A DNA stretch of 64,000 bases, taken from Thermococcus sp. 2319x1 (GTDB lineage Archaea > Methanobacteriota_B > Thermococci > Thermococcales > Thermococcaceae). Within the stretch, counting starts at the first letter, position 1. Every line of letters begins with the position of its first letter. The position numbers and the translations under genes are program-made. The notes under the pieces are model-generated. The model did not search any database, was not told where the DNA came from, and saw nothing but the letters and a program-made list of their open reading frames with translations. The stretch spans positions 924,321 to 988,320 of the forward strand of contig NZ_CP012200.1 in the NCBI RefSeq assembly GCF_001484685.1, written 5' to 3'. Of the stretch, positions 19,246-22,369 are shown piece by piece.

Positions 19246-19577
19246 GTCTTATCACCCCATGTTATAACAACAAGCGGTTTTTTAAATTTTTCTTCAGGTG
19301 GGGATACGGGCATCAAAAAGCTCGTCCACGAGGGACTTGTCCCCTGGAAGCTGAATATAACGAGTATAGCCACCCCTCAAAATGTACATGAATAGTCTTG
19401 GATCACAGGCCCTATCCCGAACTGAGGGTTAAGAAGCTATGGCCTCCACCTTTTTTAATATGTCAGAATATTGGGTTTGTTTTTGTAAATATGACAAGAT
19501 TTTGCCGCATAGGTTTGATTAACAAGATCTGTTTGACTTTCTGGTTTGAACAAAAGGCATAGAATAACCCAAGTTTC
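19246..19577. other. Intergenic stretch without a convincing gene
   Basis: No frame with a credible start is present. On the plus strand a coding-like segment without a start codon runs through GGDTGIKKLVHEGLVPWKLN and ends at a TAG near 19397; it could be a gene stump or chance. The rest is AT-rich non-coding sequence leading to the promoter of the nrdD/nrdG chimera. Confidence 0.3.
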
Positions 19578-19592
19578 TGGATAATTTATCCA
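19578..19592. promoter_or_regulatory. Operator-like palindrome 1 upstream of the nrdD/nrdG chimera
   Basis: TGGATAATTTATCCA is a palindrome with seven-base arms around one central base. It occurs again, with only the centre changed, at 19671-19685, 93 bases downstream. Two copies in one promoter region point to a dimeric repressor or a looping regulator. The regulator is unknown. Confidence 0.5.
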
Positions 19593-19670
19593 ACTATCGT
19601 ATGAAATCTTGACATTATGATCGCTGGTTCAATGACAAGGGTTATTAAGTCCTTTTCACCTCCCTAAACA

Positions 19671-19685
19671 TGGATAAATTATCCA
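19671..19685. promoter_or_regulatory. Operator-like palindrome 2 at the predicted transcript start
   Basis: TGGATAAATTATCCA is the second copy of the palindrome. A TATA-like GTTATTAAGT (19641-19650) predicts transcription from about 19672, inside this copy. It ends immediately before the AGGTG ribosome binding site. A protein bound here would block initiation or early elongation. Confidence 0.5.
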
Positions 19686-19695
19686 GGTGTTGAAC

Positions 19696-20643
19696 ATGGA
19701 GACCGTAAAGAAAGACGTTCTTCAAGAATATATAAGCTGGAACAACCTTGACGTGCTCGAAAACGCGAACCGCTACCCGGGACCAACGGGATTCTTTGCT
19801 TACGTCATGGAAGAAGCCCTAAAGGAAAGCATCTCCCTCGTTCCAGAGGACGGGAGGAAAGCGCACTTCTCAGGGGATATCTACATCCACAAGCTCCCTT
19901 ACAGCCTCTACATCCCCTACTGCTCAGGCCATAGCACGTCGAGATTGCTCAAAAAGGGCCTCAGAACGCCGACGATAACTTCGAGACCAGCAAAGCATTT
20001 TGACACTTACGTAGATCATATAGCAAACTACCTTATAACCATGCAGCACTACTTCAGTGGTGCCCAGGCGCTTTCAAGCGTTGAATGGTACGCAGGACCT
20101 TTTATAAGAAAGGACGGCCTCAACAGAGAAAAGATACGTCAGCACGTCCAGAGGCTCATCTACAACCTCAACTACCCAAGCCGGGTGGGAATGCAAACGC
20201 CCTTCACGAATTTCACCGTGACCCTCGACGCGCCCAAGGGGATGCCACTTGAGAGGCTTTTGAAGGCAGAGCTGGTTGACCACATAGCTACGGACCTCAA
20301 GGCCCCACCAGAGGAGCTTTACGGCCTTCCTTTTGAGGCATCAAGAAGACTTTGGGAGCTGTTTCTTGAAGGGCTCAGGATTGTCTCCGAGTACGGCGTT
20401 CCTTTGGAGCTCAGAGTTCCCGTGGCGAGGGGGCTCGAACAGTGGCCTTGGGTAGAAAGGGCTCTAAGAGAAGTTGAGACTGACTTCTACGTCGTGCTAA
20501 ACCCGCTCGTTGGCACACCCATGACGAGTCCCCGTGATAGGGAGTGGTGCTCTAAACACTGCTGGCCGGAGGGGGAGATTGGGTTCCTTAGGGAAAAACT
20601 GGAGGATGTGGGAGTTAGAGTCTACGTAAATCATTTTGTCTGA
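19696..20643 (+). pseudogene. In-frame chimera of NrdD N terminus and NrdG C terminus
   Basis: The 315-residue frame is made of two unrelated parts. Residues 1 to about 181 match the N-terminal part of anaerobic class III ribonucleotide reductase NrdD (ENANRYPGPTGFFAYVMEEA, AKHFDTYVDHIANYLITMQH, WYAGPFIRKDG, MQTPFTNFTVTLDAPK). From about residue 182 the sequence is the C-terminal part of the NrdG activating enzyme (VDHIATDLKAPPEELYGLP to the end). The glycyl-radical half of NrdD and the CxxxCxxC half of NrdG are missing, so neither activity can remain. The simplest origin is one deletion within an nrdD-nrdG operon that kept the frame (junction near 20239). G+C is clearly higher than nearby. 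The ATG at 19696 follows AGGTG. Confidence 0.8.
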
Positions 20644-21001
20644 TTCCCGTCGGCTTCCTTTTTATGGCCATCCTTTCATGTGAGAGTTATTCTATTATTT
20701 CTGCATTGGGTAAAAATTTGCAAAGTTTTACTTTAATAAAACGTAATTTGTATGCAATTTTATATTTTAAAGTCATGTTATTCCGAATCTTATAAATTAT
20801 AATACTATTTTATATCGTATTATGCTAAAAATCATCGAAAGTAAAAAATCGAGTCAAAGTTTGAGAGATAAGGTGAAACAAAGCAGTTTTATGTTTATAA
20901 AACATTTAGATGCTCATCTAAGAATTTAATAAAACGCGTTTTAGATGTTTAAAACCATTACCAACTCTGATTTGACCGGTATACTAGCCAAACCTGATCC
21001 C
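20644..21001. other. AT-rich intergenic stretch at the right edge of the accessory island
   Basis: No gene is visible. The stretch holds many short AT-rich palindromes, such as GTTTTATGTTTATAAAAC (near 20887) and TTTAGATGCTCATCTAA (near 20907). It also carries TTGAGAGATAA (20861-20871), the inverse of the element at 18010-18020. It is also the convergent zone between the chimera and the Nre gene, so terminators are expected. Confidence 0.35.
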
Positions 21002-22292: not shown

Positions 22293-22369
22293 TGGAGCCG
22301 GGACCGGGATTTGAACCCGGGACCTGCGGATTACGAGTCCGCCGCCCTACCGAGCTAGGCTACCCCGGC
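22293..22369 (-). tRNA. tRNA-Thr (CGT)
   Basis: On the minus strand GCCGGGG (22369-22363) pairs with TCCCGGC to form the acceptor stem, with discriminator T and an encoded CCA at the 3' end. The anticodon loop CTCGTAA gives anticodon CGT (complement at 22333-22335), reading ACG threonine codons. The T arm GTTCAAATC and the D arm are regular, and there is no intron. U at position 73 is usual for archaeal tRNA-Thr. Confidence 0.95.

Follow-up and report, generated by a model that had tools for sequence, protein, structure and literature searches.

The window analysed here is a stretch of 64,000 nucleotides from Thermococcus sp. 2319x1. On its plus strand, a single uninterrupted frame of 315 codons (19696–20643; the open frame spans 19687/19696–20643) begins as the reductase NrdD and ends as its activase NrdG. 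The question raised by this locus is how the two genes came to be joined, and whether the joined frame still serves its host. The initial annotation described an in-frame NrdD–NrdG chimera, which is confirmed by matches to PF13597 and TIGR02495 and by comparison with 49 relatives. The locus is very probably a class III ribonucleotide reductase operon that was acquired horizontally and has only recently been broken.

Structure of the fused frame

The fused frame consists of NrdD residues 1–184 followed by the last ~130 residues of NrdG. In Pfam, residues 22–181 match positions 1–170 of 562 of the NRDD domain (PF13597, E 2e-47), and in NCBIfam residues 2–183 are assigned to NrdD of the PRK08579 type. 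Residues 173–270 match positions 91–191 of 193 of NrdG2 (TIGR02495), with a score under the curated cut-off because half of NrdG is missing. Codon by codon across the 49 relatives, NrdD homology extends up to codon 184 (ATG, 20245–20247) and NrdG homology starts from codon 185 (CCA, 20248–20250). The junction lies at 20248 (±1 nt; 20247–20249) amid the residues TLDAPKGMPLER, and its sole microhomology (≤1 nt) is one common C at 20248. The join of NrdD to NrdG had been recognized initially, but it was set at ~20239 and residue ~181, which is ~9 nt early; the residue is nearer 184.

Compared with the reference locus L007, ~1,623 nt or 541 codons (approximately L007 6554–8176) are absent. The retained parts are 184 of ~616 NrdD residues (19696–20247, plus strand) and ~130 of ~252 NrdG residues with the stop codon (20248–20643, plus strand). 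The homologues are intact in the relatives and the missing stretch is bounded by one junction, which is the form of a one-step deletion as in a gene relic. One in-frame deletion of ~1.62 kb would explain the chimera. The single deletion proposed at the outset is thus borne out for the chimera, but not for the whole insert, where a second deletion of ~2.2 kb took the upstream donor genes. The chance of an open frame after such a deletion is 1 in 3, and the open frame alone is unsurprising.

The ribosome-binding site GGTG with its spacer (19686–19695, plus strand) is kept in the relatives. The conserved upstream alignment agrees with the annotation that promoter region, ribosome-binding site and frame were retained. 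The higher G+C reported for the locus is also found, at 0.49–0.56 versus 0.29–0.45 in the flanks. No convincing mobile-element ends or long repeats were found at the borders of the insert or the deletions. The chimera was not found on plasmids, and an exact 27-mer across the junction had no match on viral contigs.

The catalytic positions of NrdD were located by alignment of the relatives to the solved structures 4coi and 4u3e. The N-terminal NRDD domain is kept in the chimera with its PYC active-site strand (PYC.G, in YIPYCSG), the sole active-site element of NrdD that is left. The radical-cysteine loop (SMCCR/AMCCR), the zinc site (CxxC...CxxC, Cys4) and the RIIGY glycyl loop are present in nearly all intact relatives and lie within the deleted part. 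The same is true of the CNLRCPFC-type iron-sulfur motif (CxxxCxxC) of NrdG, which is found in 48 of 48 relatives with NrdG. The glycyl-radical half of NrdD and the iron-sulfur half of NrdG are removed, as had been stated. With the radical cysteine, zinc cysteines, glycyl glycine and iron-sulfur motif deleted, the chimera can, judged by its residues, carry out neither the reductase nor the activase reaction. The fused frame almost certainly makes no enzyme any longer.

The comparison set comprised 49 other nrdDG loci among 94 genomes of the family Thermococcaceae. A separate nrdD is present in all 49 (~620 codons, more with an intein, 516 in genome G024), and nrdG comes after it wherever the contig or the fetched stretch extends far enough. 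None of the 49 loci has an orthologous full-length protein of the fused architecture, which was found nowhere else among the 94 genomes, and a conserved fused family is rejected on this count. The tblastn matches over query residues 1–252/260 at several loci represent NrdD with a chance extension, and separate full genes are present there. A search of the host genome for an intact nrd copy elsewhere found no second nrdD and no NrdG2 match above the cut-off. The distribution of nrdDG is patchy, with 52 of 94 family genomes and 45 of 74 good-quality genomes carrying it.

Other irregular copies were recorded in the family. In G024 (locus L081, G024:C1:1550800–1565000), the 516-residue NrdD has an independent in-frame deletion of ~114 residues which removes the AMCCR radical-cysteine loop, and its NrdG has an altered C-terminus. 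G024 is apparently a second species losing class III ribonucleotide reductase. NrdD open frames of 962–1367 residues at L088 (G045), L100 (G023), L107 (G046) and L111 (G089) are probably accounted for by inteins. In G046 and G089, the NrdD homology is interrupted around residue 168, not far from the GMQTPFTN motif.

Donor clade and empty site

The host is a member of genus g1, where nrdD is found in 3 of the 12 other genomes at 72–75% identity to the window copy. The nearest copies are those of genus g4 (G081, G036, G054, G040 and G042), with 90–94% identity over the NrdD half and 67–72% over the NrdG half. In FastTree phylogenies, the window copy is nested in this five-genome clade with local support of 0.998 for the NrdD half, 0.99 for the NrdG half and 1.0 jointly. 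This position inside g4 conflicts with the kinship of the host. The donor lineage proper is not among the sampled genomes.

Flank alignments to the sister species G005, G008 and G002 end at 19269 and restart at 20690 in all three. The 1.42-kb segment of the window (19270–20690) is represented in the sisters by 89 bp, nearly identical among them, between flanks ~84–92% identical to the window. As the site is empty in three sisters, the segment is an insertion. The annotation had the chimera replacing the anaerobic ribonucleotide reductase operon; that operon was not long resident here but is itself a recent horizontal arrival. A tRNA-Thr(CGT) gene (22293–22369, minus strand) adjoins the locus and is the reason for many short partial matches in the cross-genome flank search.

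The start of a donor gene survives at 19272–19379 on the plus strand; it is colinear with nrdD and matches L071/L068/L069 at 77% identity (E 5e-13). This donor gene, a 142-residue ORF (L007 3452–3880), precedes nrdD by ~2.5 kb in G081, G036 and G040. In the remnant the ATG is lost and there are two indels (−2 and −4 nt). Alignments end at 19379 and restart at 19401, with the first-deletion junction between them (19380–19400), and ~2.17 kb of donor sequence holding two genes is gone (L007 3534–5703). From 19401 on, the insert is colinear with the upstream region of nrdD in the donor clade. The insert is therefore the residue of a segment of 5 kb or more that has undergone at least two deletions, one of which created the fusion.

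A different nrdDG copy is found in G005 (L112, G005:C1:1210500–1223900). It is of the g1 type and lies in an insertion of ~5.0 kb beside an acyl-CoA-synthetase-like gene, with the exact empty site in G000 (the host), G002 and G001. It is placed on another branch of the NrdDG tree than the window copy, and together with its insertion this indicates that nrdDG arrived more than once in genus g1.

NrdJ and the link to B12

The chimera had been taken to mark the loss of anaerobic dNTP synthesis. This is contradicted by the intact, O2-independent NrdJ of the host, a B12-dependent class II enzyme of 1,280 residues (PF02867; NF006207, 2653 bits). Class II enzymes function with or without oxygen and require B12 (PMC3019208). 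PF02867 is found in 74 of the 74 good-quality family genomes versus an nrdDG match in 45. nrdDG is thus accessory in Thermococcaceae, and its loss leaves anaerobic dNTP synthesis in place. What the host has lost is the B12-independent route, a backup. In the host NrdJ (L056:691–4533), an intein sits precisely at the NP/CGE active-site motif. Among the relatives, the length of the NrdJ open frame varies widely, suggesting differing numbers of inteins.

Two putative operator palindromes precede the fused frame. The distal one, TGGATAATTTATCCA (19578–19592), is at the same position (−116) in G081, G036, G040 and G054. The proximal one is TGGATAAATTATCCA (19671–19685). The palindrome family, TGGAYANNNTRTCCA, precedes nrdD in 49 of 49 loci. 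Both are perfectly kept, and the upstream DNA around them is ~65% identical to the donors. A stricter form, TGGAYAWWWTRTCCA, occurs 2–6 times per genome, with zero occurrences for reversed-pattern controls. All five sites in the host genome (G000) are at nrdDG or B12 genes; those outside nrdDG lie beside the methylmalonyl-CoA mutase large subunit, beside the B12-binding mutase subunit with MeaB and epimerase, and beside a BtuF-like/CobQ/CobT/CbiS-like cluster. Equivalent neighbours are found in G002 and G036, and one site in G005 (600460) is elsewhere. Beyond the window, palindromes of the TGGAYANNNTRTCCA family were recorded at L137, L138, L139 and L140–L143, and the family also occurs in genomes that have no nrdDG.

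Since the nrdDG palindromes are common to B12 genes, nrdDG would appear to encode a backup enzyme that does without B12, and we infer that it is a substitute for NrdJ which is controlled together with the B12 genes. The TGGAYANNNTRTCCA sites would form a small B12-linked, CBL-box-like candidate regulon. An archaeal ‘CBL-box’ was reportedly proposed by Rodionov and co-workers (2003) for a hypothetical B12 regulator. In bacteria, B12-independent isozymes can be under B12 control, as with the B12-element that governs ribonucleotide reductase and metE.

Age of the fusion and its meaning

Estimates of dN/dS were obtained by maximum likelihood with a branch-specific codon model. On the window branch dN/dS is 0.02 for the NrdD half and 0.06 for the NrdG half, against a background of 0.02 and 0.13. 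The branch is not above background, and neutrality is rejected over its whole length; dS on it is 1.2–2.3, near saturation, and the rate estimates are thus rough. A terminal neutral phase lowers the joint log-likelihood by 1.0 at dS 0.01 and by 2.6 at dS 0.02, and by interpolation a phase beyond dS ~0.017 costs more than 2. Most flanking genes have a dS of 0.2–0.5 to the sisters. A neutral phase of at most dS ~0.017 against these flank values points to a recent break, in agreement with the recent event first suggested. Most of the window branch (dS ~1.2) therefore predates arrival in the host, the genes then being intact.

No neutral decay is seen in the 315 codons, while the adjoining donor-gene remnant has decayed. 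Either the fusion took place very recently or it is subject to selection, which would produce the same picture. When 0.02 neutral substitutions per site were simulated, 52% of copies were still without a stop. With half of the copies stop-free, recency suffices without selection, and a recent deletion is favoured as the simpler reading.

An unlikely alternative is that purifying selection maintains the fusion as a new functional protein, one that is expressed through the two operators during B12 scarcity and serves, for example, in nucleotide or partner binding. Such a protein would fit the open frame with no measurable neutral phase, the intact promoter region, ribosome-binding site and both operators, and the decay of the neighbouring remnant but not of the fused frame. 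AlphaFold was uninformative from the single sequence (pLDDT 43); with a 13-row alignment a fold is predicted for the NrdG part, at pLDDT 77–94 over most of its length, against <50 for the NrdD part, where alignments are shallow. However, both active sites are gone, the chimera is present in one genome only, the cell contains no NrdD or NrdG partner, and a recent deletion accounts equally well for the absent decay. A new protein, one of the outcomes first envisaged, is conceivable and nothing in the data demands it. The more specific proposal of a young selected protein with a non-catalytic role, induced under B12 limitation via the two operators, is a shade more doubtful. The dominant inhibitor suggested alongside it is unlikely, as no NrdD or NrdG is left to inhibit.

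The operon may instead have been fused in the donor and have arrived as a chimera. The branch (dS ~1.2) does run to a donor lineage outside the sampled genomes, so that whether the deletion came before or after the transfer can be judged only indirectly. Arrival as a chimera is nevertheless very unlikely, as no fusion is seen at any of the 49 sampled loci and the bound on the neutral phase makes the fusion younger than nearly the whole branch unless it was selected. Collapse of an intact operon during sequencing or assembly is more improbable again. Although the chimera has been seen in a single assembly, the host genome is a single contig of 1.96 Mb (99.8% complete) with no stray nrdD or nrdG pieces elsewhere, and the join is exactly in frame and has no repeat on which to collapse. 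The least probable reading is that genus g1 had the locus ancestrally and three sisters lost it precisely. The patchiness of nrdDG shows that losses are common, yet the 89 bp of the empty site are nearly identical in the three, both halves nest in g4 and not with the g1 copies, and the upstream remnant matches the g4 neighbourhood.

For the freshly broken, acquired operon, the following course is proposed. A stretch of 5 kb or more carrying nrdD–nrdG and upstream genes came from the g4 clade G081/G036/G040/G054/G042 and landed in an intergenic spot of the g1 lineage, displacing 89 bp. The upstream donor genes would have been mostly deleted and their remnant would have decayed, and a later deletion of ~1.62 kb would have joined nrdD codon 184 in frame to nrdG. 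The loss would be bearable, with B12-dependent NrdJ supplying dNTPs without oxygen and nrdDG being a probable backup for B12 shortage.

The locus catches the loss of an acquired operon in mid-course, and the empty site, the donor neighbourhood, two deletions and the intact frame can all still be read from it. A reason for the repeated gain and loss of nrdDG is suggested as well, NrdJ being kept by every good genome while nrdDG is accessory, with an operator common to B12 uptake, salvage and mutase genes. It is predicted that a lineage without a working nrdDG should need B12 for DNA synthesis. The link to the B12 regulon is a more useful lead than the chimera.

Among known systems, the chimera is closest to the nrdD–nrdG operon of Thermococcaceae (PRK08579/NF006358 type), with which it shares gene order, promoter region, operators and ribosome-binding site. 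Amino-acid identity to the nearest copies is 93% in the NrdD part and ~70% in the NrdG part. It differs from them in lacking ~1.62 kb, in the fusion of the genes, and in the absence of the radical-chemistry residues except the PYC cysteine. Class III reductases are fused with their activases in some fungi and oomycetes, likewise in one reading frame and in the same order (PMC3019208). In contrast to these, the chimera keeps ~30% of NrdD and half of NrdG, lacks both catalytic halves and cannot be catalytic. The NrdD relic of G024 is similar in that an in-frame deletion has taken the radical-cysteine loop, but it retains two separate genes as well as the glycyl and zinc regions. As with the bacterial isozymes under B12 control, a B12-independent reductase here lies under sites that are common to genes for B12 transport, salvage and methylmalonyl-CoA mutase. 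Unlike the bacterial case, the site here is a DNA palindrome and not a riboswitch.
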